Source of the DNA: Pectobacterium carotovorum
GTDB lineage: Bacteria; Pseudomonadota; Gammaproteobacteria; Enterobacterales; Enterobacteriaceae
Length of the DNA stretch: 64,000 bases
Assembly: GCA_016415585.1 (NCBI GenBank)
Contig: CP066552.1
Span: 2,480,001 to 2,544,000, forward strand
Direction of reading: 5' to 3'
The translations under genes and the position numbers were made by a program. Below, in pieces: positions 48,616 to 64,000 of this stretch (position 1 is the first letter of the stretch; each line of letters opens with the position of its first letter). The notes beneath the pieces were generated by a model. It was not told the DNA's origin. It saw only the letters and a list, made by a program, of their open reading frames with translations, and searched no databases.

Positions 48616-48783
48616 AGAAAAAAGGACCAGTTCGGCACGCTACCGCCCCGCAGGGACTTTACCGCCTGCAACCGCGCTACATCATAGCAGCGGCGACACT
48701 GTGGAAGCGGAAGAACGGGTGCTACGTTAAGTACAGAGAACGGCTTGGGTTAGCGTTTGCCCTGCGCGCTTACAGAAAACTGG
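48616..48783. other. Unassigned spacer at island boundary
   Basis: GC-moderate stretch that does not match a gene I recognise in any frame. It marks the change from conserved core genes to decayed mobile and toxin genes. Confidence 0.3.
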
Positions 48784-49003
48784 CTAACTTTTGTGGTCGT
48801 TCAGCGATTCAGAGAACAGACTATCGATATCACGCGCACCGTGCAGGACACGCTCGATCCTCACTTCCACATCCGTCGTGCCGTATAGGATAAGATAACG
48901 TCCATAGGCACAACTTCGGATGGATTGCCCCAGCTCCGGACGCTCACGGTAAAGCGTAGTGCTCGTACCGGATTATCTTGCTCTGCCAGCGGTGATACGG
49001 TCA
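48784..49003 (-). pseudogene. parE: Broken ParE-type toxin gene
   Basis: After the ParD stop, the minus strand reads LTVSPLAEQDN in one frame (ParE N-terminus) and then, after a loss of sequence and a frameshift, LYRERPELGQSIRSCAYGRY and LILYGTTDVEVRIERVLHGA RDIDSLF with a stop at 48784. RVLHGARDI near the C-terminus is diagnostic of ParE gyrase-poisoning toxins. About 70 codons remain of the normal 95-100 and they are in two frames, so the toxin is inactive. Confidence 0.75.
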
Positions 49004-49270
49004 GTTTAATTCCGCGTTATCACCTTCTGCCATGTGTCGGTATTTCTGCGACAGACGCCCGAACACCGCTTCGGCATCCTTGCCCTTTCCGTTGTTTACA
49101 CCCAACTCGACCGCCGTCCGTAGCGCATCAAGCTTTATCTGCTGCTCTCGCTCCTCCAGTGCCCGCAACCCTGCACGGATAACCTCGCTGACATTGTTGT
49201 AACGACCACTTTCGATTTGTTCACGGATAAATTGCTCGAAGTAAGGACTTAACGCGATACTGGTTGCCAT
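49001..49270 (-). CDS. parD: ParD-type ribbon-helix-helix antitoxin
   Basis: Antitoxin of the ParDE type II family, 89 residues. The ribbon-helix-helix DNA-binding region is MATSIALSPYFEQFIREQIE followed by SGRYNNVSEVIRAGLRALEE, the classic ParD sequence; the C-terminal part would wrap the toxin. GGAGG lies 5 bases before ATG 49270. It is followed directly by the remains of parE, so the antitoxin is an orphan and may only regulate its own promoter or protect against related ParE toxins. Confidence 0.85.
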   Translation of the reverse strand: MATSIALSPYFEQFIREQIESGRYNNVSEVIRAGLRALEEREQQIKLDALRTAVELGVNNGKGKDAEAVFGRLSQKYRHMAEGDNAELN

Positions 49271-49304
49271 CATTTCCTCCAACCACACAAGATAATATCT
49301 ATTA

Positions 49305-49840
49305 TTATCTATTAGTATTTTCTTCCTCTCCCGTTCCGTCACCCCCTTCTTTCTGATGTGCCTCCTCTTCTGCTATCAAGCCAGCCAGTAACCCGCTTTC
49401 TTCCTCTGCCTCCCGCTCTGCCGGGTTCGCACTCGCATGCACCGCTGACAGCGCACGGATTGAGACCTGCGTGTAAAGCTGCGTGGATTCGATACTCGCA
49501 TGACCCAGCATCGCCTGTATCCGCGGATATCCGCCCCATTCTCCAGCATCTGCGTCGCCATCGCATGACGGAACAGGTGGCAGCTTCCCCACGGCGCGAG
49601 TCCCGATGCCCGGATGTAGTGGCCTACCGTGTGGGTGATACCGTTCGCCGTCAGACCTTCTACCCCGTCCAGCGCCACGAACAACGCCCTGATGTCCGGA
49701 CTGACCAGCAGTTGCGGCCTCACCGCCTGCACGTAATGCCCGCTTGCCAATGGGAACGGTACGGTCTTTCCTCCCCTTGCCCTGTTTTCTTGAGGTGTCC
49801 ACGCTGTAGACATCCAGCTTCGGCAGCTCCAAGCTGAACG
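49305..49840 (-). pseudogene. Tyrosine recombinase/integrase, frameshifted and 5' truncated
   Basis: Pieces in two or three frames reconstruct a Xer-type tyrosine recombinase C-terminal domain: KGRKDRTVPIGKRAL, then HYIRASGLAPWGSCHLFRHA and MATQMLENGADIR (His-x-x-Arg), then IQAMLGHASIESTQLYTQVS with the catalytic His and Tyr, and a Glu-rich tail ending EEENTNR. At least two frameshifts separate the pieces and the N-terminal core-binding domain is missing. The left end (49826-49840) abuts a regulator fragment on the other strand. Confidence 0.75.
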
Positions 49841-49982
49841 CAACCCCGACGATGAGCTGCGCTTGCAGTTTGAGGCAGTGAGTCAGTTCTCATCTGAAGA
49901 GAAGGAAGTGGCCAGAGTGCTGCTGGAGTCATTGATCCTCAAGCACGATGCCAACCGTTTCACACGTAAGACACCGAGTTAA
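49830..49982 (+). pseudogene. C-terminal fragment of an XRE-family regulator
   Basis: Open frame encoding QAERNPDDELRLQFEAVSQF SSEEKEVARVLLESLILKHD ANRF..., ending TAA at 49982. This is the usual C-terminal dimerisation segment of short XRE-family (helix-turn-helix) regulators associated with islands and toxin-antitoxin loci. The helix-turn-helix part is missing, cut at the integrase remnant. Confidence 0.6.
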
Positions 49983-50061
49983 CCGTAATTTTAGCTCGAC
50001 CCGCCAGTGCGGGAACACTGTCAGGTCGCTCACCATAACCCACTAAGTGAGGTAGTTAATC

Positions 50062-50286
50062 ATGGCTGAACGCGATTCTAAGTCAGAACCCCGCGCAACT
50101 GAAGTAAAAGAGCCACAACGGCATTACACTGTCGGTTACGCCCCCAACGGCGGTAAAAAACCGCCCAGCCCACAGCTTAAACTCAGCGGCAAGTGGCTGG
50201 AAGAACTCGGTTTTAATACCGGACGGTCCGTTATCGTCACTGTTGAGCGCGGGCGGCTGGTGATTGAGACTGAGCTAAGGTTCTGA
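50062..50286 (+). CDS. SymE-like protein (intact copy)
   Basis: A 74-residue protein with the SymE core: RHYTVGYAPNG, then QLKLSGKWLEELGFNTGRSV and VTVERGRLVIETELRF, an AbrB/SpoVT-like beta-barrel fold. E. coli SymE is an SOS-induced, RNA-associated toxin repressed by the antisense RNA SymR; this copy is shorter, lacking the C-terminal part. GAGGTAG precedes the ATG. It faces an orphan cdiI tail to tail, with a terminator between. Whether it is toxic or is an accessory of the CDI module is unknown. Confidence 0.75.
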   Translation: MAERDSKSEPRATEVKEPQRHYTVGYAPNGGKKPPSPQLKLSGKWLEELGFNTGRSVIVTVERGRLVIETELRF

Positions 50287-50301
50287 CCGATAAAAACAAA
50301 A

Positions 50302-50333
50302 ATCCCGGCTTGTTTTAGAAGCCGGGATCTCTT
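50302..50333. terminator. Bidirectional terminator symE-like / orphan cdiI
   Basis: Stem ATCCCGGCTT/AAGCCGGGAT (50302-50311, 50319-50328) with a 7-base loop, flanked by CTCTTT on the plus side and, reading the minus strand, TTTTTGTTTTTATC after the stem. Confidence 0.85.
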
Positions 50334-50854
50334 TAATCATTTAGCAGTTCCTGATTTTCTTTTTTCAGCCATTCTTGATGATGCTTAATGACTAATTTAT
50401 ATTGTTCATCAGTATAATATTCTGTAGGTGATATGTTATTTCCAACACCTTGTATTATATTTGGCGTTTCTGCATCCTCTCCCCATAATCGCCAAAACTC
50501 ATTCAGTTTTAGAAGACCATATACACAGTCACCAGGCAATTCCTGCATCGTTAGGCATAGCGCAAGGTATCTCCATTTCCTGCTGGATAACTTGAGATCT
50601 ATATTTTCTTCATCACATATAAATCTTAAGTAATCCATCATCTCATCAGTAATCTCAGAACAAAAAGCCACTTCAGATATTGCCGTCAATAAAATATCTT
50701 TCACGCCATCGGTTTTTGCAAGTTCATTACATGCAAAACTGCTAATTTCTGAAGCAGATAGCTTGCCTGATACTATCCCGCAAGCACCAAGGAAAATCAT
50801 CCCCCAATCGACCAGCTTCATCTGGTTGGCCATTAAAAATAGTTTATCTGTCAT
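50333..50854 (-). CDS. CdiI immunity protein of the orphan CDI module
   Basis: A 173-residue, mostly helical, acidic protein without signal peptide or membrane segment. It overlaps the end of the orphan toxin frame by 4 bases (ATGA), the standard arrangement of cdiA-CT/cdiI pairs. No recognised family. By position it should bind and neutralise the adjacent C-terminal toxin in the cytosol. AT-rich composition relative to the upstream pre-toxin DNA is usual for such cassettes. Confidence 0.75.
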   Translation of the reverse strand: MTDKLFLMANQMKLVDWGMIFLGACGIVSGKLSASEISSFACNELAKTDGVKDILLTAISEVAFCSEITDEMMDYLRFICDEENIDLKLSSRKWRYLALCLTMQELPGDCVYGLLKLNEFWRLWGEDAETPNIIQGVGNNISPTEYYTDEQYKLVIKHHQEWLKKENQELLND

Positions 50855-52484
50855 GGTTTTGACGGTACTCCATTAACTGTGCCACCGGAAACAAACATTC
50901 GGTGACTAACTCCACCTAATTTGGGATCTAGGATCCACTCAAATCGTCCTGGCACACCATTTAAGCTACCTTCTAACTGATAGAGAGTTGCACCGTTATT
51001 CAACGACGTTTTAACGGCTGAGTCCGCATAATTATCTACAATATCACTAAAACCATGTGACTTAGGAACAGAAGGAAATTCCTGAGTAGCCGTTGGTTTA
51101 ATTTTATCTGGATAAATAGAGATCTCTTTTCCATCAATATCCGTAACAACTTTATTAGGCAGTTGGTCTACTTTATTTCCACTACCGCTACCTTTTTCGC
51201 CAACTCCCACTCTTGGGTTATCTAAAATATCATTTTTAATAATATTTCCGCTAACTGATTCGACTTTTCCTATATCAGCGGCAACACCCGGCACTTTCTT
51301 ACCCGGCAACATAATTCCGGCAAGCATTCCACCCGTCGCTTCCAACGCAGCCTGATTTCCCTCTGATGCTTGCTTGATCGTATCGGCCACCGCTGACCAG
51401 GTTTCGCTCTTCATCAGGGCTTTCACTGAGTCTGCTACCGCCTGATTCTTCCCTGATAGATCATTCAACGCCGTACTACAATAACCGTCACCCGCTGCGC
51501 AAGAGGCCAGCGCCATTGCTGCATCAGCAACGTAATCCGCTGAACCTAACGTTGCATCTCCGCTATCTGCAATGGCATTAATAATACCATTCGCAACTGA
51601 AGAGGCTGTCCCTTCACCCAGCTTGTCACGTACCTGATTTTTCCACCATTCCGCACTCTCTTTTACTGACTGACGGGCTTTATCTCCACTCAGCGCATTA
51701 TTCTCCACCGCATTACGCCCAGACTGCGCGCCGCTGGCGGCAGACGCCGTGCTGTTGCTTGCCAGCCCAGAGGCCAGCGTGGAAAGTGCGCTGACCGACT
51801 GTTTTTCTTCTTCCGTCAGGTCGTTCGTCGTCTTGCCAGGATATACTTTAGCCATGATCGCACGGGCGATCAGTTCACCGCTGGAGGCACCCATCGCCCC
51901 CGCAGCCGCATCCTGACCTGACAGCTGGGCGACCACAGCCCCCACCACCGCGTGCGCCATCGCATTGGCTGCGATATCCGACGCCGTGATTTTGCTTTCA
52001 TCCTTCGGTATCGTGACATCTTTCACCAACTGTGCCAGATACGGTGATGCACCACTGGCAATCGCTTTCTGGATGTCCCCGCCCGCCAGTGCCTGAATCG
52101 CCGCCGTCGCTGCCTGTGCCGCTCGCTGGAAGTCACTGCCCGTGCCGTATTTCTGCATCTCGGCTTTGTAGGTCGGCGATTCTGTCAGCGTCTTTTTATA
52201 GTCCTCCCACATCGCGACCGAATCACCGTCCTCCGGACGTTTGACTTTGGAGTCACCCTTGGCTTCTGCGGCTTTCTGCGCTTTCAGCTCTCCTTCCGTG
52301 CGCACGATATCCATCACCTGCGCGCCGATTTCACCAATCAGCTGCGCCTGTTTCAGGCGTTTCTGCTCTTTCTCTTTGTTAAAGATCGGACTGAGCGCGT
52401 TGTTCGCGTGTTCAACGTCACGGCTCAGCGTAGTGATATCCTGCACCTGCTTCGCCGTATCCCGCAACAACAAGGTGCCATCGC
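50851..52484 (-). CDS. Orphan cdiA-CT module (silent toxin cassette)
   Basis: Open frame of about 540 residues without its own good start; it begins abruptly within the pre-toxin region (LLRDTAKQVQDITTLSRDVE) and runs through YLAQLVKDVTIPKDES to the VENN motif (51697-51708). Up to VENN it is almost the same as the main cdiA (53627-54426). After VENN, 281 residues form a different C-terminal toxin whose end, YQLEGSLNGVPGRFEWILDP KLGGVSHRMFVSGGTVNGVP, I do not recognise; a conserved His-containing end suggests a nuclease-type domain but this is a guess. Orphan modules of this kind can replace the main C-terminus by recombination. It is followed by its cdiI. Confidence 0.85.
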
Positions 52485-52675
52485 AGTACTTTGGGTCTGG
52501 CTATGTCAGCCGCCGTCACGCCGACCGCAATGATATGACGCGCTATTACAGCCGCAGCCCCAGCCTGCACCTTACTGACCACTGGCTGGAAGCCGCGGGA
52601 TTTGGGACCGATACGCGGGTCACTATCACTGTTGAACACAGCAGACTGGTCATTGAGACTGAACTAAGGTTTTGA
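52485..52675 (+). pseudogene. SymE-like fragment, 5' truncated
   Basis: C-terminal part of a second SymE-like gene: GSGYVSRRHADRNDMTRYYS, HLTDHWLEAAGFGTDTRV and VTVEHSRLVIETELRF-like end (VTITVEHSRLVIETELRF), stop at 52675. The end is nearly the same as that of the intact copy at 50286. The 5' end is lost exactly where the orphan cdiA-CT homology begins (52484/52485), so it was cut by the insertion or recombination that placed the orphan module there. It again faces a cdiI tail to tail, 47 bp apart. Confidence 0.7.
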
Positions 52676-52722
52676 TCACCACGAATGATGATCCCGGTGG
52701 TTCCGAGATCTTTGAATGTATT

Positions 52723-52962
52723 TTATTTATTCGCTTTGAGCCGGGACATAAGCCAGATTCCTATCCCTAAGGGAACTCCCCCAGATAGGCCTTTTCTAGC
52801 AGAGTCAATAACTACGTTCTGCCACGAAAAGTAAAAAAAGCCATCCTTAAGAAAGAATACAGATGCGATACCTAATCTAATAAGAAGCATAGTTAAAGCA
52901 ATGAGTACAGTGAATGACGTGATTAGAACCAAAAGAGTTTTAATCCCTACTTTATTTGCCAT
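52723..52962 (-). CDS. cdiI: CdiI membrane-type immunity protein of the main CDI locus
   Basis: A 79-residue inner-membrane protein: one long hydrophobic segment (about residues 8-38, TLLVLITSFTVLIALTMLLI RLGIASVFF) and a second weaker one (about 60-74, GVPLGIGIWLM), with a basic C-terminus. Its start overlaps the end of cdiA by 11 bases, typical for immunity genes. Small membrane immunity proteins go with CDI toxins that dissipate the membrane potential, such as that of E. coli EC93; the Gly/Ala-rich toxin here fits. The specific family is not recognised. Confidence 0.75.
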   Translation of the reverse strand: MANKVGIKTLLVLITSFTVLIALTMLLIRLGIASVFFLKDGFFYFSWQNVVIDSARKGLSGGVPLGIGIWLMSRLKANK

Positions 52963-55900
52963 TTTGATTATTCCTGATTGCCTTTACTTGGTTCTCGGCC
53001 TCAGAAGTCGCTGCTTCTGAACTCAAAGCACCGACTACCGCTCCTACGGATTCCGCAGCTCTATCTGAAACAATAGGATTTAGCTTATTACCATAGGTTA
53101 TTAGTTTACCGCCAGCAGCACCAATCGCCGTACCAATCCCCGCCGCGATGGATGCCGTCAACGGATCTTTATTCTGCAATTTTGCTCCTGCGTAAGCACC
53201 GCCAACACTCACAACTTCTGTAAACCAGAATCCCCTGCCTTGTGTGACTGCCCCAGCCCCCGTCGCAATCAGCGCATCGGTATAGCTAAATGAACCATTT
53301 CCCATTAATTGATTACTAATATTTGCTGTACCACTAATGGCTCCGCCGCCAATTATTGTGCCAGCACTCAACATACTGGGTAAAAATACCGGCGCGACAA
53401 CCACAGATGCTCCAGCTCCCCACGCGATTAAAAGTCCTCGGACAGGATCCTGCCCTTCAGGTATCGTACCTGTGATCAATTTGTGCATCGCATACTGACG
53501 TTCTTCTTCCGTTATTGGATTCAGCACGTTACCGTTTTCATCCAGCAAGTTGGTATTGGTGTACAACGATGTCATCGACATGCCAACGTCAGTCATTCCT
53601 TTTGGCATGCCATTTGGGCCGAAGAAGTTATTCTCCACCGCATTACGCCCAGACTGCGCGCCGCTGGCGGCAGACGCCGTGCTGTTGCCTGCCAGACCGG
53701 ATACCAACCCAGAGGCCAGCGTGGAGAGGGCGCTGACTGACTGTTTTTCCTCTTCCGTCAGGTCGTTCGCCGTCTTGCCGGGGTATTGATCGGCCATGAT
53801 AGCGCGGGCGATCAGTTCACCGCTGGAGGCACCAATCGCCCCCGCAGCCGCATCCTGACCTGACAGTTGGGCGACAACAGCGCCCACCACCGCGTGCGCC
53901 ATCGCGTTGGCCGCGATATCCGACGCCGTGATTTTGCTTTCATCCTTCGGTATCGTGACATCTTTCACCAACTGTGCCAGATACGGCGATGCACCACTGG
54001 CAATCGCTTTCTGGATGTCCCCACCCGCCAGTGCCTGAATCGCCGCCGTCGCCGCCTGTGCCGCTCGTTGGAAATCGCTACCCGTGCCGTATTTCTGCAT
54101 CTCGGCTTTGTAGGTCGGCGATTCCGTCAGCGCCTTTTTATAGGCCTCCCATTCCTGCGCCGAATCACCGTCCTGCGGACGGTTGACTTTGGCGTCGCCC
54201 TTGGCTTCTGCGGCTTTCTGCGCTTTCAGCTCGCCTTCCGTACGTACGATATCCATCACCTGCGCGCCGATTTCACCAATCAGCTGCGCCTGTTTCAGGC
54301 GTTTCTGCTCTTTCTCTTTGTTAAAGATCGGGCTGAGCGCGTTGTTCGCATGCTCAACGTCACGGCTCAGCGTAGTGATATCCTGCACCTGTTTCGCCGT
54401 ATCCCGCAACAACAAGGTGCCGTCGCTCACCGCAGCATAGGTGGTGCTGGCAGCATTGCCGCTATTACCCAGCGACATCAGCGCCGACGGCACGTTCATC
54501 GCCAGCGTTGAGAGCAGGCTACCGCTCATCGATGGACTGGCGCTAAAACCTGCGCCGCTGTGCTCCACCTTGAATTCGGCTTTGTTGTTGAGCCCGCTCC
54601 AACCCAGCGTCCCCGTTTCCAGCCGATTTTTCTCTGCGCTGGCGGTGGAGCCAATTACCGCGGCGTCAAGCTGGGTGTGCTCACCGGTTTTTATACCAAA
54701 TCCGTCTTTACCCGCAAAGAGCCCTGTCTGTTGTTGCACACTGTCATAATTGCTGTGCATCTTGTCTTTACTGAGGCTGATATAGCCGCTACCGCCCCCG
54801 CCGCCCCAGGTAAAACTACCGCCCGCTGAGCCACTAACCTGTTTAGAATCATACCGGTCGCTATCCTGCTGACTTTGCAGCAGCAGATTGCGTCCGGTAT
54901 CGACATCAATACGCTCGCCGTTCACCTGCGCGCCAATCAGTCGCGTATCACGTTCGCTTTTCAGCGTGACATGGTTACCCGCATCCACCGTCGTTTCTGA
55001 CCAGCTATTGCCCGTACCGGTTTCCCGCCCTTTCGCCGCATTAACGTTGGCGAAAATGCTGAGCCCCGCACTCCCGTTACTCAGTCCCAGGCTGATGCCA
55101 ATATTCCCGCCGCTGCTGCTGTTTTTACCACTGAGCTCCTCGCTGTTACGGGCTGAGAGCAGGTGAATATCCTGCGCCGCGTTCATCATGACGTCGCCGC
55201 CCGCCTTAAGCTGGCTGCCTGCGACCGTGATATCTCCGGTACGCGATTCGATACCAATATCTCCCGCCGCATTCAGCGTCGAACCAAAGCTCTGTTTCTG
55301 CTCGCTGGTCTGGCTGGAGCGTGAGTTTTGCGCCCCGAGCGAAATACTGACGCCGACAAAAGACGCTTCCCCCTTGTTGTTCAGCTCGGACTGGCTGCCC
55401 TGATAGGCCTGATACCCAGACAGCCCGGCTTTCATGCCCTGCAGCAGCGCCAGTCGGCCATCACTTTCACTTTTTGCCGCCTGAATGCTCTGCACCGCGC
55501 TGTTGAGCGCCGAACCCACCACGCCAGACAGCGCCACGGTCAGACCCGCGGTTTTCTGCTCAAACTCCTGCTGTTGTTTGCGCGTGTCATAGCCCGGATC
55601 GAGGGTGACATTATTGCCTTGCAGGAGGATGTCTTTTCCGGCCACCATATCGGTGCCGCTGATCGTGACATCGTTCCCGGCCTTCACCGTCACCGAATCG
55701 GTCGTGCTGCCAAGGGTGCTGATGCTTTGACTTTGTGTCGCCGCCTGATCGCGCAGTTTCTGGCTGGTCGAGGTTGAACCGATGGTAAAGCCAATGCCGC
55801 CACCGCTGAACAAGCCGCTTTTTTTCTTGCTGTACTCTTCATAGTTCTGGTAGTTCTCTACGCTGGCAGCGGTGTTGACGTCATTATTCGCCAGCAGCGT

Positions 55901-58900
55901 GACCTGTTTGTCACCGACCACGGAGGAGCCTTGCAGGTTGATATCCTGATTGGCCGCCATCGTGACACTGTCACCCGACAGCAGACTGCCTTTTTCATTG
56001 GTCTGCAACGTTTCCCGCAGGGTATGCGTCACCGTCTTCGAAAACCGCTTCTTCTTGACCGTGGTTTCTTCAAAGAAGGTGTGCTGCGTTTCCGTCGCCG
56101 ACAGCAGATTGATGTTGTTGCCCGCCTGCGCCGTCACCGCGCCGCTCGCCACGCCCTGTGCTGCCTGCAGGTTGATATCTCTGCCCGCCTGCAAATTCAG
56201 GCCTTTGCCCGCCGTTAACTCGGTGCTCTGCTGGGTGATATTCTGCTGCCAGTCGGCGTGACGGTTCCACCAGTTGCCGCTGTAGGTTTCTTCCGTTTCA
56301 GACAGCAGGTTGAGATCGCGTCCGGCCGCCAGTGTCGCATTGCCTTTGGCGTTCAGGCTGGCCGCTTCCGACAGCACATCTCGTCCGGCCACCAGATTCA
56401 GATCGCCCCCGCTCAGGAGTTGGCTGTTTGCCACCTCCTGCGTACGGCGCTGCGCGGTACTGCCGCCCTGATACAGCGTCTCTTTCAGCGTGTCCTGTGC
56501 GGTCAGACGAATATCATTACCCGCCGCCAGCGTCAGCGCCGTACCGCCGGAAAGCGAACTGGCATCGATCTGAATATCCTGACCCGCCACCGCGCTCAGC
56601 GCACCGCCGGCATTGACGGTGCTGCCTGCAACAGAGGTATTCAGCGCGGTATTACTGCTGCCCCAGCCGATATCCACGCGGTTATTGGTCAGCGTCAGCG
56701 CCTCAATCGCGACATTGCCTTTGGCGTTCAGCGCCATGTCCTGTCCGGCATTGAGCGTAGCCGCCACGTTGCGGATATCCTTGCCCGCGCTGAGCGTCAG
56801 GCTGTTGCCCGCGACGATCTCGGCGGTTTTGCCCAGTTCAGTGAAGACCAGCGATCCGGTGCCGCTGCGTGAAGCCGTCGGCTGTGCGGTCTGGAAGTTG
56901 CGGCTTTCGGTTCGGTTGATGATGTCGCCGTTGATGCTGGCGAGCTGCAGCGTGCTGCCTTCAATCCGGCTGCCGCTGTTGGTGATATTGTTGAGCGCCA
57001 CCAGATTCAGGCCGCCGTCTGATTTGATCAAGCCGCCTTCGTGGTTATCAATCTTGTCGCCGCTGGCGATCGCCAGCAATTCAACGGCCTTGAGCGTGCC
57101 GCTGTTGGTGACGCTGCCGCCCGCGTTCAGTTCAACTTTGTTCGCGACAATCGCGCTGCCCTGCAGGTTGCTTTTATCCGCCTGCGCCAGATACAGCTTC
57201 GGTGCCAGCACGGTTTGCCCGTTGACCTCGATATTTTCCCACCAGACCATGCTCTGACTGAGGTTCGCGACCTGATCCGGCGTCAGGCTGACGCCCAGTT
57301 GCAGGTTCATGCCTTTCTGCGCCGCGGCCGCGTTATCGAGCAGCTTCTGCATTTGTTCCAGATCGGAGCCGGTGCCATTCAGGTGACGCTGCCCGCTCTG
57401 TTTCAGCACCGCCTGGCTGATGTAGCGGGTATCAAACTCCGCATCCCCGAGGAAGCGATAATCGTGGTCTGCATCCAGATTCAGTTTATCCAGCAGATAG
57501 GACGACCCCAGCACCCTATCGGCCTGCGTCCACTGTGAGCGCGTCTCGACAGGCACCACCGTTGACGGCTGCTGCCCCAGCAGCGTTTGCAGATCGCTGA
57601 ACAGCGCGTTATCCACCTGCCCCAGCTGTTCCAGTTTCGGGTTGGTGTGGATCAGGTAACGACTGTCCGCATTCGGATCGACAACCAGCAGCCCGTTATT
57701 GCTCGTCGGCAGCGGATAATCGGCAAGCGGGTTGGTGCTCAGGTTTTGCAGCCCGTTGCCGATGGCGCTCAGCAGGTCTGTGGCAGAAAGAAGTTGTGGC
57801 GCAGAAGGCGTAGCGCCGCCCGGCAGAGTGTCTGCACTGACCGCCGGCTTCGGTGCGTCAATCGCCGCCATGCCCGGTGTGGTCAGAGTGGCGGGGCTAC
57901 CTACCGTGCCCGCTATCGTTACGCCAGTCACCGTGTTGTCCACGTTAACCGGCGTCAGGCTATTCCCAGCATCAGGCCGTTGGCCTGTCGACGACAGCGC
58001 AATGGTATCAGGGTTGCTGACGTGACCGGAAGCAGAAGGCTGTAGCACCACGGCGTCGCCGGTATTCAGCGTCAGCGGCCCGGTGGTATTCGGCGCCGCA
58101 ATCACCGCTGTGATGTTCTCCGCCTGTGCGCCCGCTTGCAGCGCGGTGCCCACCTGCTGCGTCAGCGTGACCGCATCAGGATTGTTCACGTGACCGGAAG
58201 TCGAAGGCGATAACACCACGGCGTCGCCGGTATTCAGCGTCAACGGCCCTGTGGCAGTCGGAGCCGCGATCGCCGTTGTGATGTTGTCCGCCTGTGCGCC
58301 GGTTTGCAATGCAGTGCCTACCTGCTGCGTTACCGTCACCGTTTTGCCCGTCGCAGTCACCCCTGCGGCATTGCCTGCCAGCGCCGCTTGTCCGCTCGCT
58401 GCTTTGGTGACGTCTACCGCACCCGCGTTAAACGACGAATCCTGGCTGGCCAACTGACGTGTGGTCTGCTTCTGCAACGGTGACAGCGTGGTGATGGCAT
58501 CCAGCACCGGCTTGGTGGAGGCAGGCATAAACCCGCCGCTGCCCGGCTGTAATGTAGTATTACTGATATCTTGTTTGAAATCGGCGGTAATGGTGCCGCC
58601 CGCCTGAATTAATGCGTTATAGCTTTCGCCAACGGTTTTTTCGGTTACTGGGGTGCCTGATAATCCATATTGGATATATGGGTTTGCCTTTTTACGAGCC
58701 TCAGCGCTGATATAAGGCATCATTATTGGATTTCTATTACTACGTTGATAAATGTAGGTTAAATATTCATTCACGCTACCAGATTGATATGATTTATTAT
58801 TGAAATCACCACCATGTAAATCAATATTTTTTTTAGCCGAAATTACTGACGCCTGATTTATTAGCACAAAAGAAAATATTGATAAATTATATCCAGAGTT

Positions 58901-61900
58901 GATTTTACCTGTATTTCCTTCAGCATTTATCTCAATCAATTTATTAGTAATTGATACTCTTTGAATATCAGATTTTTCATATGGAACATAGGAATAAGAT
59001 ACTCTGCAAGTATCAGTTCCATTTTCACCATGAGAGGAACATCTCTCCCTTTCTACTATTCCATACTCCTCTGGTTTAAACCACTCGATCGGAATATTCA
59101 CCGTTGTTTTCCCTGCCCAATCAGGCACCGAATCTCCAGCCAACTCAGTTTCCGTCACCACCAGTCCTTCCCGCTGGTTAGTCAACGTACCGGTATTAAT
59201 GGTGATATCGCCGGATTGGGTTTCAATCGTGCCGGAGCTGTTGAGCAGCGACGTGCTGGCGTTACCCTGTGTATCACGTTGCACCCACAGGCTGTTGCCC
59301 GCCAGAATGGTGCCGAACACGTTGGTCAGGGAATCCGACAGCAGGCGCATATTGCCGCCCGCATACAGCATGCTGCTGTTATGTAACAAGCCTCCCGCCT
59401 GCACCAGCAGGTCACCGGTGGTGCCAATCAGCCCTTTATTATTCAGCGTATTGTCGCTTATCAGCGTCAGGTTCCCCCCCGCCTGAATGCTGCCCGCCTC
59501 CAGCTGTACGATGTCTTTTGCGCTGACACGCAACTCGCCGCCGCCCGCCAGAATATTGCCCTGATTCGTCAGCGTGCCGGTGCTGCTCAACTGGACGGAT
59601 TGTCCCTGTAACGTCCCGCGCTGGTCGAGGTCGCCCGCCACATTCAGCGTCAGCTGTTGCCCGGCGGCCATGGTTTGCGTGAAGGTCAGCGGCCCGGTGA
59701 GTTCGGCGCTCAGGTTGCCCAGCGCCACCAGTTGCCCGTCCTGCTGCAGTTCATTAGTCTTGAGGCGCAGATCCTGTGCGCTGTAGAGTTTCGCACCCTG
59801 ACGGTTAGTCAGACGCTGCGTCTGCAGCGCCAGCTGTGTCAGCCCCAGCAGCGTGCCGTGGTTGTCCAGCTCGTCGGCGATAATCTCCAGTTCACCGGCC
59901 TGCACCAGCCCGTGATTCACCCACTGCGGAATGTTCAGCGTCAGCTTATCTTGCGCCATCAGGCTGCCCTGCTGGGTCAACTGCGCCGTGTTCACAGCCA
60001 GCCCGCGCCCCTGCAGCCAGCCGTGATTGTCCACCGTCGCCGCGTTCAGCGTGGTGGTGCCGTCAGACAGCAACTGCCCCGCCTGCTGGTTGACAATCTT
60101 CTCTTTTCCATCCAGTTGCAGCGCGGCGGTGCCCTGTACCGTACCGCCGTTGGTGATGATGCTCCCCGTCAGCGTAGTGGTCGCGGCGTTGATGTCGCCC
60201 TGATTATTCAACGCGGCCGCCTGCACGCTCAGCGAGCCATCACTGCTTAAACGCGCCTGCGCAGCATTGCTGAACTGGCCGGCGACGGTGGTGTTAAGCG
60301 CACTATCGCCACGCAAAGTACCGTGATTAGTGAGTTCATCGGCACCCAGCGTCAACGTGCGGCCCTGCATCTGTCCACGGTTAGTGATGTCATGCGCCGT
60401 CAGGTTCAGTTGACCGCCGCTAACCAGTTGGCTGCCCTGCGCGCCCTGATAGGCACCGGTCAGCTGCAGCGTCCCGCGCTGCACGCCCAGCAGATGGCCC
60501 TGCTGATCGAGATCGCGGGCGGTCAGCCGTAACTCGTCCGATTGCCACAGCCCCTGATTACTCAGCGCGCCGGTCGTGAGTTCGCCCACACCACCGCTGA
60601 GTAATCGCCCCGTGGCCAGATTATCGACGCGATCGGTGAGCTGCAGCGTAAAGCCACCGACGCCCGTCAGCGTGCCGCCGTTCTCCAGCATCGTGCCGGT
60701 TAACGTCACCGCGCCCTGCGAGAACAGCTCTCCCTGATTACGTAACTGGTCGCCGTTGAGCGACAGACTGTTCAGCCCCGCGACGGTACCGCTATTGCTG
60801 AATGTATCGCCGTTCAGCGTCAGCGTACCCGCCTGCCATAACCCAGCGTTATCTGCCTGTTTAGCCTGGAGCGTGGCCGCCCCTTTGCTGAGCAACTGGC
60901 TGTTTTTATCGCCGACATAGCGCAGCACGTCGAGCAGGCGCAGCGCGTCGGTGCCCTGAATGCGGCCCTGATTGTCAATCTCACGGGCGCGTAGTTGCAG
61001 GTCGTTAGCCTGTAGCGTACCGGCATTGCTCAGCGTGCCGCTGTCGAGATGGCCCGCGCCGTTGGTCAGCAGTTCCGCCCCGGCACGGTTAATCAGTTCA
61101 TCCCGGTTTGTGACCGTCAGGCCGTTGCTGCCCAGCACGCGCCCGCCATTATCCAACGTGCCGGTGGTCAGATTCAGCGTACCCGCGACTATCTCACCGC
61201 TCTGCGTCAGGTGGGCGGCCGTGATAACGGTGTCACCATCGCTCAGCAAACGAGACAGGGCGCTTCCCTGATAGGTGTTCAGTAAATCAAGACGCAGCCC
61301 GTCCTGACCGAGCAGCGACCCGCCATTTGTCAGGTTGTTCGCCGTCAGCGCCAGCGTATTGCCCTGCCAGAACCCGTCATTCGTGACCGTGCCTGCCTGC
61401 GCCTGCAGGGCACCGTTAGTCAGTAGTTGGCCGGTGCTGCCGACCGTCAGACCGTCACGCAGTCCCAGCGTGATGCCACGCTCACCGATAACCGTGCCGG
61501 TGTTGTTGAACGCGCCGCCGTCCAGCGCCAGCGCCCGGCTTTCCCAGCGCCCGCTATTGCGCAGCTGGTTGCCGCGCAGCGTCAGCGTATCGGCAGTATG
61601 CAGCAGACCCGTGCCCTGATAGTCGCCGTCAAGCGTCAGCGCCCCGTCAGCAATCACGCTGCCCGCATTGTTTATCGCACCACTGTCGAGCGTCAGCTTA
61701 CCCACGCCGGACACGGTGCCCTGATTGTCGAGCAGGCTGGCGCTCAGTTGTGTGTCGCCGCCAGAGAGCAGCGTCCCCTGATTGGTGAGAAGGCTGACCG
61801 GATTAGCGCGATCCAACGCGATCGTTAATCCTTTATCCCCCTGCATCCGCCCGCGGTTGGTCAACTGCTGCGCATCAAATGTCAGGCGGTCTGCCTGCGC

Positions 61901-64000
61901 ATCGCCGTCGTTTGTCACGCTCGCCGCGCGTAAAACAGCCAGTCCCTGCGACAGGAGTTTCCCATTCTGCTGATTCGTCAGGCCGTTGGCGGCGGTCAAT
62001 GACAAGGCATTGAGGCCAAAAATCTGTCCACGGTTGGTCAGGTCAGCCGCCTGCAGCGTGATGTCGCCCGCCTGCCACTGCCCCTGATTGTCCACCTGAT
62101 CCGCCGTCAGCGTACTGCTGCCCTGACTCAGCCAGTGGCCCTGATTGCGGGCCGTACCGGTAATCGCCAGCGTCAGTGCATCCACGCCCAGCATCTTGCC
62201 CTGATTATCCAGCGTCTGGGCGTCCACCTTCAGCGCCCGCGCTTCCAGCGTGCCCTGCTGGTCGATATGGTTCGCCACCACGCCCAGCGTGGTGCTGCCG
62301 CTGATAAGTCCGCGGTTATCCAGCGTGTTGCGCACATTCAGTTGCAGATCGTCTGAACCCTGTATCTGCCCGTGGTTCAGCACGTCCTCAGCGGTGATAC
62401 CTGTCCGCTGGCTGGTGAGGTCACCAGTGTTGGTCAGGGTGCCGCCCAGCGTTAACTGCAGGCTACGCGTACCGTTAAGCAGCCCACCGTTGGTCACGGC
62501 ATTGGCAGTAATGGCAAGCGCGTGGCTGTTCAGCGCGCCCTGATTATCAAGATGATTGCCGAGATCCAGCATCAGCCCGTTCACGCCCGTCAGGGTGCCC
62601 TGATTGAATACATCTCTGGCCTTGAGCGTCAGCGCGTTACTGCCGATGTCACGCGTATTATTCAGTGTCCCGTTCAGCCCCAGAGACAGGCTGTCGACAC
62701 CAGTGAGCGTGCCGTGGTTGGTCAGATCGCTGGCGTTCAGCGTCACCGCCGCCCCGTACAGCGTGCCGCGGTTGGTGAGGCTGTTGCTGGTTGTCAGTTC
62801 AAGACGGTCGAGGCCGTTGATTTTCCCGCGGTTGTCCAGTCTGTCGGCCTGTGCGGCCAGTTGATGGCTGTTCAGCGTGCCCTGATTGGTTAACGCGTCA
62901 TCCAGCGTCAGTTGAAGACCGTCAACGCCGGTGAGGGTGCCTTCGTTGGTCAGCGTACGGGCAGCAACCGTGGCGAGCTTGCTCCACAGCGTGCCCTTAT
63001 TGTGTAATTCGCCGTTTGCCAGCGTCGCCTTCAGCGAGGTATCGCCCTGAATATGGCCGACGTTGGTCAGTTGCTGTGCGTCCAGCGTCAGGCTGTCCGC
63101 CTGCCACTCGCCCTCGTTGCTCGCCTCGGCCGCGTTCAGCACCGCCACGCCCTGCGTGAGCAGCTTGCCGGTTTGCGCATTGGTCAATTTATTTTTCGCC
63201 GTCAGCGACAGCGCCGACAGTCCCAGTAGCCGTCCGGCATTCCCGACGTCATCCGCCGTCAGCGCCAGCGTGTTGCCCTGCCAGAATCCGTCGTTAGTGA
63301 CCGCTCCCGCCCGTGCTGATAACTCACCGTTAGTCAGTAGTTGGCCGGTGCCGCCGACCGTCAGGCCATCGCGCAGTTCCAGCGTGATGCCACGCTCACC
63401 GATAACCGTGCCGGTGTTGTTGAACGCACCACCGTTCAGCGCCAGCGCCCGGCTTTCCCAGCGTCCGCTATTGCGCAACTGATTGCCGCGTAACGTCAGG
63501 GTGTCGGCGGTATGCAACAGGCCCGTGCCCTGATAGTCGCCGTCAAGCGTCAGCGTCCCGTCAGCAATCACGCTGCCCGCATTGTTTATCGCACCGCTGT
63601 CGAGCGTAAGCTTACCCACGCCGGACACGGTGCCCTGATTGTCGAGCTGGCTGGCGCTCAGCCAGCTGTCGCCGCCGGAGAGCAGCGTGCCCTGATTGGT
63701 TAACCGGCTGGCGGGGTTGGTACGATCCAGCGCGATGGCTAACCCGTTGTCACCCTGAATGCGCCCGCGGTTGGTCAGTTGCTGGGCTTCAAACGTCAGG
63801 CGGTCCGCCTGCGCGTTGCCGTCGTTTGCCACCGTCGCCGCACGCAATACCGCAATACCCTGCGACAGGAGTTTCCCATTCTGCTGATTCGTCAGGCCGT
63901 TGGCGGCGGTCAATGACAACGCATTGATACCAAAAATCTGCCCGCTGTTGGTCAGGTCAGCAGCCTGCAGCGTGATATCGCCCGCCTGCCACTGCCCGTG
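52952..64000 (-). CDS. cdiA: CdiA: giant contact-dependent inhibition / filamentous hemagglutinin-type exoprotein (5' end outside window)
   Basis: Two-partner-secretion exoprotein; about 3680 codons are visible and the frame is open at the right edge, so the signal peptide and TPS domain are missing. Order from the N-terminal side: FHA-1 beta-helix repeats with LTNQGTL/LDNQG units (about 64000-59200); a distinct non-repetitive AT-rich part with Cys pair (IVERERCSSHGENGTDTC) at about 58600-59130, where CdiA proteins carry the receptor-binding domain; FHA-2 repeats (about 57200-54500); a pre-toxin region; the VENN motif (53627-53638); and a 224-residue C-terminal toxin rich in Gly/Ala hydrophobic stretches (VVVAPVFLPSMLSAGTIIGG, TGAGAVTQGRGFWFTEVVSV). 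cdiB should lie upstream, beyond the window. Confidence 0.9.
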   Translation of the reverse strand, partial: HGQWQAGDITLQAADLTNSGQIFGINALSLTAANGLTNQQNGKLLSQGIAVLRAATVANDGNAQADRLTFEAQQLTNRGRIQGDNGLAIALDRTNPASRLTNQGTLLSGGDSWLSASQLDNQGTVSGVGKLTLDSGAINNAGSVIADGTLTLDGDYQGTGLLHTADTLTLRGNQLRNSGRWESRALALNGGAFNNTGTVIGERGITLELRDGLTVGGTGQLLTNGELSARAGAVTNDGFWQGNTLALTADDVGNAGRLLGLSALSLTAKNKLTNAQTGKLLTQGVAVLNAAEASNEGEWQADSLTLDAQQLTNVGHIQGDTSLKATLANGELHNKGTLWSKLATVAARTLTNEGTLTGVDGLQLTLDDALTNQGTLNSHQLAAQADRLDNRGKINGLDRLELTTSNSLTNRGTLYGAAVTLNASDLTNHGTLTGVDSLSLGLNGTLNNTRDIGSNALTLKARDVFNQGTLTGVNGLMLDLGNHLDNQGALNSHALAITANAVTNGGLLNGTRSLQLTLGGTLTNTGDLTSQRTGITAEDVLNHGQIQGSDDLQLNVRNTLDNRGLISGSTTLGVVANHIDQQGTLEARALKVDAQTLDNQGKMLGVDALTLAITGTARNQGHWLSQGSSTLTADQVDNQGQWQAGDITLQAADLTNRGQIFGLNALSLTAANGLTNQQNGKLLSQGLAVLRAASVTNDGDAQADRLTFDAQQLTNRGRMQGDKGLTIALDRANPVSLLTNQGTLLSGGDTQLSASLLDNQGTVSGVGKLTLDSGAINNAGSVIADGALTLDGDYQGTGLLHTADTLTLRGNQLRNSGRWESRALALDGGAFNNTGTVIGERGITLGLRDGLTVGSTGQLLTNGALQAQAGTVTNDGFWQGNTLALTANNLTNGGSLLGQDGLRLDLLNTYQGSALSRLLSDGDTVITAAHLTQSGEIVAGTLNLTTGTLDNGGRVLGSNGLTVTNRDELINRAGAELLTNGAGHLDSGTLSNAGTLQANDLQLRAREIDNQGRIQGTDALRLLDVLRYVGDKNSQLLSKGAATLQAKQADNAGLWQAGTLTLNGDTFSNSGTVAGLNSLSLNGDQLRNQGELFSQGAVTLTGTMLENGGTLTGVGGFTLQLTDRVDNLATGRLLSGGVGELTTGALSNQGLWQSDELRLTARDLDQQGHLLGVQRGTLQLTGAYQGAQGSQLVSGGQLNLTAHDITNRGQMQGRTLTLGADELTNHGTLRGDSALNTTVAGQFSNAAQARLSSDGSLSVQAAALNNQGDINAATTTLTGSIITNGGTVQGTAALQLDGKEKIVNQQAGQLLSDGTTTLNAATVDNHGWLQGRGLAVNTAQLTQQGSLMAQDKLTLNIPQWVNHGLVQAGELEIIADELDNHGTLLGLTQLALQTQRLTNRQGAKLYSAQDLRLKTNELQQDGQLVALGNLSAELTGPLTFTQTMAAGQQLTLNVAGDLDQRGTLQGQSVQLSSTGTLTNQGNILAGGGELRVSAKDIVQLEAGSIQAGGNLTLISDNTLNNKGLIGTTGDLLVQAGGLLHNSSMLYAGGNMRLLSDSLTNVFGTILAGNSLWVQRDTQGNASTSLLNSSGTIETQSGDITINTGTLTNQREGLVVTETELAGDSVPDWAGKTTVNIPIEWFKPEEYGIVERERCSSHGENGTDTCRVSYSYVPYEKSDIQRVSITNKLIEINAEGNTGKINSGYNLSIFSFVLINQASVISAKKNIDLHGGDFNNKSYQSGSVNEYLTYIYQRSNRNPIMMPYISAEARKKANPYIQYGLSGTPVTEKTVGESYNALIQAGGTITADFKQDISNTTLQPGSGGFMPASTKPVLDAITTLSPLQKQTTRQLASQDSSFNAGAVDVTKAASGQAALAGNAAGVTATGKTVTVTQQVGTALQTGAQADNITTAIAAPTATGPLTLNTGDAVVLSPSTSGHVNNPDAVTLTQQVGTALQAGAQAENITAVIAAPNTTGPLTLNTGDAVVLQPSASGHVSNPDTIALSSTGQRPDAGNSLTPVNVDNTVTGVTIAGTVGSPATLTTPGMAAIDAPKPAVSADTLPGGATPSAPQLLSATDLLSAIGNGLQNLSTNPLADYPLPTSNNGLLVVDPNADSRYLIHTNPKLEQLGQVDNALFSDLQTLLGQQPSTVVPVETRSQWTQADRVLGSSYLLDKLNLDADHDYRFLGDAEFDTRYISQAVLKQSGQRHLNGTGSDLEQMQKLLDNAAAAQKGMNLQLGVSLTPDQVANLSQSMVWWENIEVNGQTVLAPKLYLAQADKSNLQGSAIVANKVELNAGGSVTNSGTLKAVELLAIASGDKIDNHEGGLIKSDGGLNLVALNNITNSGSRIEGSTLQLASINGDIINRTESRNFQTAQPTASRSGTGSLVFTELGKTAEIVAGNSLTLSAGKDIRNVAATLNAGQDMALNAKGNVAIEALTLTNNRVDIGWGSSNTALNTSVAGSTVNAGGALSAVAGQDIQIDASSLSGGTALTLAAGNDIRLTAQDTLKETLYQGGSTAQRRTQEVANSQLLSGGDLNLVAGRDVLSEAASLNAKGNATLAAGRDLNLLSETEETYSGNWWNRHADWQQNITQQSTELTAGKGLNLQAGRDINLQAAQGVASGAVTAQAGNNINLLSATETQHTFFEETTVKKKRFSKTVTHTLRETLQTNEKGSLLSGDSVTMAANQDINLQGSSVVGDKQVTLLANNDVNTAASVENYQNYEEYSKKKSGLFSGGGIGFTIGSTSTSQKLRDQAATQSQSISTLGSTTDSVTVKAGNDVTISGTDMVAGKDILLQGNNVTLDPGYDTRKQQQEFEQKTAGLTVALSGVVGSALNSAVQSIQAAKSESDGRLALLQGMKAGLSGYQAYQGSQSELNNKGEASFVGVSISLGAQNSRSSQTSEQKQSFGSTLNAAGDIGIESRTGDITVAGSQLKAGGDVMMNAAQDIHLLSARNSEELSGKNSSSGGNIGISLGLSNGSAGLSIFANVNAAKGRETGTGNSWSETTVDAGNHVTLKSERDTRLIGAQVNGERIDVDTGRNLLLQSQQDSDRYDSKQVSGSAGGSFTWGGGGGSGYISLSKDKMHSNYDSVQQQTGLFAGKDGFGIKTGEHTQLDAAVIGSTASAEKNRLETGTLGWSGLNNKAEFKVEHSGAGFSASPSMSGSLLSTLAMNVPSALMSLGNSGNAASTTYAAVSDGTLLLRDTAKQVQDITTLSRDVEHANNALSPIFNKEKEQKRLKQAQLIGEIGAQVMDIVRTEGELKAQKAAEAKGDAKVNRPQDGDSAQEWEAYKKALTESPTYKAEMQKYGTGSDFQRAAQAATAAIQALAGGDIQKAIASGASPYLAQLVKDVTIPKDESKITASDIAANAMAHAVVGAVVAQLSGQDAAAGAIGASSGELIARAIMADQYPGKTANDLTEEEKQSVSALSTLASGLVSGLAGNSTASAASGAQSGRNAVENNFFGPNGMPKGMTDVGMSMTSLYTNTNLLDENGNVLNPITEEERQYAMHKLITGTIPEGQDPVRGLLIAWGAGASVVVAPVFLPSMLSAGTIIGGGAISGTANISNQLMGNGSFSYTDALIATGAGAVTQGRGFWFTEVVSVGGAYAGAKLQNKDPLTASIAAGIGTAIGAAGGKLITYGNKLNPIVSDRAAESVGAVVGALSSEAATSEAENQVKAIRNNQNGK
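61330..62090. repeat. Long direct repeat inside cdiA, copy A
   Basis: Near-identical, gap-free to copy B at 63244-64000, displaced by exactly 1914 bp (638 codons). Encodes FHA units such as LTANNLTN, TNDGFWQGNTLALTA, DGDYQGTGLLHTADTLTLRG and LTNQQNGKLLSQG. Confidence 0.9.
63244..64000. repeat. Long direct repeat inside cdiA, copy B (runs into window edge)
   Basis: Second copy of the repeat at 61330-62090, with the same reading frame and only scattered substitutions. It is cut by the right edge of the window, so the true length may be greater. Confidence 0.9.

Follow-up and report, generated by a model that had tools for sequence, protein, structure and literature searches.

Orphan cdiA-CT/cdiI modules of contact-dependent growth inhibition (CDI) systems, as presented in the available text of Poole et al. 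2011 (PMC3150448), consist of a VENN-bearing cdiA fragment without start signals and an immunity gene behind it, the toxin being carried on full-length cdiA elsewhere; for one orphan pair of that account, the homologous stretch extends exactly from one VENN to the following one. Such modules, models of their displacement or silent storage, and isolated mentions of symE in the vicinity of CDI, Rhs or type VI secretion system (T6SS) genes appear in excerpts of PMC3150448, PMC4927057, PMC11278526, PMC8386352, PMC7764402 and PMC3942780. We analyzed a 64,000-nucleotide stretch of Pectobacterium carotovorum DNA (assembly GCA_016415585.1, contig CP066552.1, positions 2,480,001 to 2,544,000; hereafter the window), in which a main cdiA with the C-terminal toxin region (CT) CT1 is followed by an orphan cassette with another toxin region, CT2. 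It is likely that a mobile element loaded the CT2 cassette onto a full-length cdiA and that the cassette was later displaced to its place behind today's main toxin; redeployment would now be possible only via recombination between repeats.

The locus shares with the modules of PMC3150448 the VENN fragment devoid of start signals, the immunity gene behind it and the presence of the toxin on full-length cdiA elsewhere, but differs from them, as far as the excerpts go, in that its cassettes end in antisense symE, that cassette seams cross species and that a recombinase-bearing element ends at VENN in relatives. Displaced toxin cassettes with immunity genes, and a recombination unit reaching the next cassette, likewise characterize meningococcal tpsA/tpsC, for which circle or single-crossover models were put forward; unlike here, homologous recombination is the sole process invoked and the portion seen mentions no VENN-targeting recombinase element (PMC3848433). 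In evolved Salmonella, main and orphan rhs similarly share 522 bp at 95% identity, and recombination deploys the orphan toxin, although this is an Rhs rather than a CDI system and the excerpt mentions neither such an element nor symE (PMC3967940). E. coli CDI islands come close in carrying integrase and transposase genes, transposition and site-specific recombination being suggested to remodel cdi loci, for which displacement ("fossil") and silent-store models were also proposed; in contrast to the present case, no attachment site or defined-end element is mentioned in the text available (Ruhe 2016, PMC4927057).

As the preliminary description had proposed, the cassette (50062-52484) proved to be an orphan cdiA-CT/cdiI module. 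A PT-VENN match (E 4.7e-15) is followed by the unrelated CT2 (50851..51708, minus strand) and a predicted immunity gene, cdiI2 (50333..50854, minus strand; DUF2247, Imm38), whose open reading frame (ORF) overlaps CT2 by 4 bp, and the same module lies on a full-length cdiA elsewhere, CT2 being the main toxin in Pectobacterium fontis (95% amino acid identity; open frame of 5061 aa). Missed in that first reading, the cassette ends in what the sequence identifies as the remains (48633-50318) of an element of the mobile kind that carries symE, a regulator, a DnaG-like primase and a tyrosine recombinase. This remnant lies directly behind cdiI2, with a terminator-like hairpin on both strands (50298..50332) between cdiI2 and symE2, and is collinear with the element of a related genome, G208. 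Its left part (49833..50318; 91.2% identical to the G208 element) comprises symE2 (50062..50286, plus strand), an intact frame in antisense orientation, and the end of an XRE-like regulator gene. It continues with the C-terminal part of the recombinase and the cargo following it (48974..49724, minus strand; 89.6%) and with scraps of its right end at 48760-48955 (83.2%) and 48633-48694 (88.7%), while the stretch that would hold the primase and the N-terminal part of the recombinase is missing. With the CDI-type recombinase, the recombinase pieces share 85-86% identity. The CT2 cassette looks like a unit that an element had loaded and that has since lost this element. A ParD-like antitoxin ORF (49001-49342) also lies within the remnant.

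Intact counterparts were found in relatives. In G208, G217 and G200, the ~6-7 kb from symE to the next VENN hold an XRE-like helix-turn-helix regulator, a DnaG-like primase and a tyrosine recombinase, and in these genomes and in G218 the right end of the element falls exactly at the VENN codons. Among 25 genomes, five of the six elements with near-full-length CDI-type recombinases end base-exactly at VENN codons. A second recombinase family, 46-50% identical to the first over the matched part, is found at Rhs loci, where 18 of the 28 Rhs-type recombinases fetched end exactly at DPIG codons and the other 10 stop at contig ends; these counts leave out the short fragments G209:C52 and G203:C24, and the 28 Rhs-type recombinases include broken ones. 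A tyrosine recombinase together with a base-exact end at a target motif, as expected of a site-specific integrative element, was thus found in relatives. The genome studied here has such a locus as well (G000:C1:1185527-1189277), with a main rhs, an antisense symE and an orphan rhs repeat that is 97.4% identical over 1047 bp; an element end lies at its DPIG codons (1188053-1188071).

In three loci, the element is flanked by identical cassettes, after which a different one follows. G208 harbors two elements that are 99.97% identical over 5928 bp, and two units with the same toxin stand there in tandem, followed by a different toxin, the unit being repeated without mismatch over 2050 bp. At the Rhs locus of G200, two cassettes are identical at 1058 of 1058 bases and the next one is 57% alike; in G385, which lies outside the genus, three cassettes are identical each time at 1293 of 1293 aligned positions, the next being 48% alike. 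Each tandem cassette of G385 (G385:C1:430000-460000) is followed by symE, primase and recombinase genes, and one or two of the primase frames look broken.

The Rhs junction pattern was detected in 6 of 392 family genomes, 3 of which are not among the five genus members searched (G105 and G373 being counted, by kinship, as other genera), and its backwards control gave no match. The CDI junction pattern, the first bases of which were wrong and for which two mismatches were allowed, hit 36 of 392 genomes, but it was noisier, its matches needed one or two mismatches and are part chance, and its backwards control matched too. No element gene was found in the junction-pattern region of G245; the regions of this kind were chosen by the pattern itself and are examples, not a rate. 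At Rhs loci, symE was antisense in 39 of 39 cases, a count informative on orientation only, since the loci were picked for symE clusters.

These junctions bear on the proposal that homologous recombination alone, by unequal crossing-over or by transformation with cassette DNA, shuffles the cassettes, the element junctions then being inherited scars in which the recombinase had no part. This we regard as unlikely. The proposal accommodates the symE seams described below, which are clearly inherited, and it has a published parallel in the Neisseria tpsC model, whose unit, in the excerpt of PMC3848433, is bounded by repeats. It sits poorly, however, with two recombinase families that end base-exactly at two boundary motifs, in two systems, in several species and with many toxins.

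Upstream of CT2, the homology claimed between orphan and main gene was readily recovered. The orphan copy of the pre-VENN repeat (51697..52484, minus strand; 788 bp, VENN codons 51697-51708) and the main copy (53627..54426, minus strand; VENN codons 53627-53638) align by BLASTN (51698-52485 with 53628-54427) over 800 columns with 92.5% identity and 46 mismatches; in a MAFFT alignment, 737 of 800 columns are identical and gaps make up 12 columns. The sole large length difference is, as stated earlier, the 12 bp in LASGLVSGLAGNS. The longest identical tracts measure 86, 74, 61 and 44 bp. NG86 estimates were 0.033 for the nonsynonymous (dN) and 0.21 for the synonymous (dS) distance, so that the high similarity stood, although "few substitutions" was generous at that dS. 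Past VENN, a word-7 search returned nothing longer than 11 bp; the CT regions are unrelated, as had been claimed, and the continuing homology that the preliminary description had itself named as evidence against its view was not seen. In one similarity search across genomes, pieces of 100 columns or fewer, or ending at or before query position 2900, were dropped from the counts. The repeat tracked the genome more than the toxin, with 94.2% identity within genomes versus 89.9% between them (0 of 10000 permutations), which fits with local exchange; in the tree of the repeat, 17 of 27 inner branches were unresolved.

The other limit of the repeat homology, 52484, is the fusion of the orphan to a truncated symE, symE1 (52493..52675, plus strand; start lost, antisense to cdi). 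The same symE|cdiA seam (52484..52485) is present in G207, where it lies behind the same CT1 module, with the 69 symE-side bases next to it identical and 94.2% identity in 224 columns across the seam. Further shared seams comprise one in G204, G210 and G214, one in five G208 copies, one present in triplicate in G202, and a weaker one found in four genomes. Across the genus, antisense symE abuts 27 of the 29 orphan edges listed and none of the 17 main genes (DNA profile, E <0.1, close to the edge), the two misses being G208b 5951 and G202a 8430. Since the seam recurs in a second species and symE seams are recurrent, the edge gives no insertion date, contrary to what had been assumed; on sequence grounds it is an inherited cassette seam.

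The idea that the orphan was recently and independently inserted behind cdiA, an event dated by the edge at 52484, and that a single crossover in the 790-bp repeat is the switch draws on the length and identity of the repeat, including its 86-bp tract, and on the 522-bp repeat reported, in the part of PMC3967940 seen, to recombine at 95% identity in Salmonella Rhs. We nevertheless consider it quite improbable: the seam occurs also in G207, even though topA is just 92% identical there, symE seams account for nearly all orphan edges, and the repeat copies have diverged to the dS given above.

Clustered orphan edges were initially taken as a recombination hotspot, an idea replaced by that of inherited, eroded seams. 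Losses on the two sides of the seam are correlated (Spearman 0.58; 220 of 20000 permutations), over 16 types defined by eye and with chance short repeats between symE and cdiA not modelled. An integron-like single shared site was not found at the cassette junctions, symE|pre-VENN seams lying at many points in both symE and cdiA (the same 16 by-eye types; integron attC was not searched for). In G200 and G212, seams showed by eye 8-9 bp stretches common to symE and cdiA, which may hint at microhomology joining. An array in G208 (G208:C1:2336000-2361500) contains, with the main gene, eight pre-VENN copies, each ahead of a different CT; four copies have one and the same symE seam, and a fifth copy of that seam lies at a second locus near 2.59 Mb. 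E. coli was rejected as a second case of symE seams, none of the three cdi loci read having an annotated symE. SymE matches in the present genome number eight (two below the Pfam cut-off) and fall in three places: besides the cdi and Rhs loci, there is one behind a DPxGL-bearing frame. SymE is reported to be SOS induced in the abstract of PMC1891008.

Comparison among species showed that toxins change between main and orphan position. By topA, the present genome is nearest to P. carotovorum DSM 30168 (96%), with P. fontis at 91% and G207 at 92%. P. fontis has CT2 as its main toxin and G202 has it as an orphan whose frame is interrupted by a TGA; CT1, the main toxin in the present genome, takes the orphan position in G202 and G207. 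A comparison for switched CT regions among Pectobacterium relatives, as first suggested, bore this out: of six shared CT families, one occupies the main position in both species and the other five alternate, being main in one and orphan in another (families being full-length matches of at least 86% amino acid identity between genomes, with the loci read; weaker or partial matches were left out). Compared with P. fontis, CT2 and its immunity gene reach 96-100% identity in 10 of 12 comparison windows starting ~224 bp past VENN, and 93 and 95% in the other two, versus 82-86% over the 500 bp just before this tract. A like step separates CT1 from its flank in G207, and another toxin in G200 versus G208. 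The toxin-immunity tails are thus, judged by identity, mobile between species, in tracts that begin past VENN and not in the repeat. Interspecies crossovers at or before VENN were rejected after sliding identity had placed the steps ~100-500 bp past it. The switch by one crossover through the repeat, as first proposed, was thus upheld in its geometry, which allows a deletion of ~1.94 kb, and in that toxins do swap between main and orphan, but not for the between-species tracts, which do not start in the repeat.

The orphan frame itself has no features of an independent gene so far: it has a stop at 52501-52503, five codons ahead of the edge, its first start-like codon is a TTG at 52473, and a scan of 49850-53700 on the orphan's strand gave a promoter-like site solely downstream of the orphan; signal-peptide prediction was not run. 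The orphan toxin is presumably silent at present. The cassette might instead have been retained for immunity, CdiI2 guarding against neighbors that deliver CT2 and the toxin frame being baggage. Such neighbors may exist, given the main-toxin position of CT2 in P. fontis; the accessible part of PMC3150448 reports an orphan immunity gene expressed in E. coli EC93; and the TGA in G202 is in keeping with a dispensable toxin frame. On the other hand, CT2 is open here, toxin and immunity gene together are, in those windows past VENN, closer to P. fontis than topA is, and no promoter-like site lies upstream on the orphan strand, and we hold retention for immunity to be possible but doubtful.

The toxin domain of CT2 is also found behind HINT, LXG and DUF637 modules in other bacteria. 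DUF2247 is listed as Imm38, the partner of the predicted BECR nuclease Ntox19, whose features are D, H, DxxxR, E and HxxF; CT2 has conserved HGF, E and HRMF and the Imm38 partner, but Pfam gave no Ntox match for CT2, and a PDB fold search with the first, low-confidence structure model found no match at E<=0.001. The two models (pLDDT 49 and 64) are too weak to confirm the fold.

Main cdiA (52952..64000, minus strand, open beyond the window end) exceeds 5,700 codons and looks intact, with cdiB (ShlB/POTRA) directly upstream. Its toxin region, CT1 (52952..53638, minus strand), contains PEGQDPVRGLL, which agrees with PEGQDP(A/V)RGLL, the entry-domain motif of group 1 (AcrB-type) CDI ionophores in the excerpt of PMC11630599. 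The predicted immunity gene cdiI1 (52723..52962, minus strand) codes for 79 aa without a Pfam match, and PDB sequence searches with CT1, CT2 and cdiI2 gave no meaningful match. A second CdiA-like gene in the same genome (G000:C1:2269559-2270926; open frame of 2471 aa) is 50% identical to this locus in the pre-VENN region and 41% in a CT1-like region, with no SymE match nearby.

Several observations weigh against the loading of CT2 by an element. The window remnant has no terminal right end, so that a junction with VENN is not visible here; a CDI-type recombinase of G217 (2181488) has no VENN within ~3 kb, nor has the G203 remnant in the 6.1 kb examined; and the three E. coli cdi loci are also without such an element, as annotated. 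When G208 is left out, the within-genome signal of the repeat weakens to 91.8 versus 89.5% (82 of 10000 permutations). Identical tandem units could stem from unequal crossing-over, and in the three clearest between-species tracts high identity begins neither in the repeat nor at VENN. Finally, orphans directly behind an intact element do not have the pre-VENN repeat, and the 788-bp repeat and symE seam therefore need a second process.

Loading of the CT2 cassette by an element nevertheless remains the account that we favor. A circle comprising VENN, toxin, immunity gene, symE, XRE-like regulator, primase, recombinase and element end would integrate at the VENN codons of cdiA, which would put a new toxin in frame on the host gene at once and leave the old toxin behind the right end of the element. 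CT2 may have arrived via such an element and CT1 may have come later with the symE seam, the order of the two arrivals being a guess. A deletion crossover through the repeat, with loss of CT1, its immunity gene and symE1, could later restore CT2 and is its likely way back. Some integrative elements replace the 3' end of the gene they target, and these combine a tyrosine recombinase, intragenic integration and a gene end restored by the element; here, unlike in those cases, integration would change the weapon, as the gene end brought in by the element would encode another toxin along with its antidote.

The wider proposition, on which we are evenly divided, is that an integrative element family in several genera uses toxin-boundary codons, VENN in cdiA and DPIG in rhs, as attachment sites, each element carrying a toxin, an antidote, symE, a primase and a recombinase. 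Two unrelated contact weapons would in this way be re-armed in a single step, the old toxin being kept in reserve downstream. In the excerpts examined, toxin-end change in polymorphic toxin genes is mainly ascribed to homologous recombination, and neither an element ending at VENN or DPxGL nor symE as a cassette seam was found in that literature, which consisted of open-licence papers. An element that ends exactly at VENN and DPIG would be a concrete agent for toxin replacement and would explain VENN-to-VENN homology between orphans, and symE seams offer inherited marks for tracing the movement of cassettes between species. If this proposition is true, the conservation of VENN and DPxGL would in part be the signature of an attachment site, and orphan arrays would be the wake of the element.

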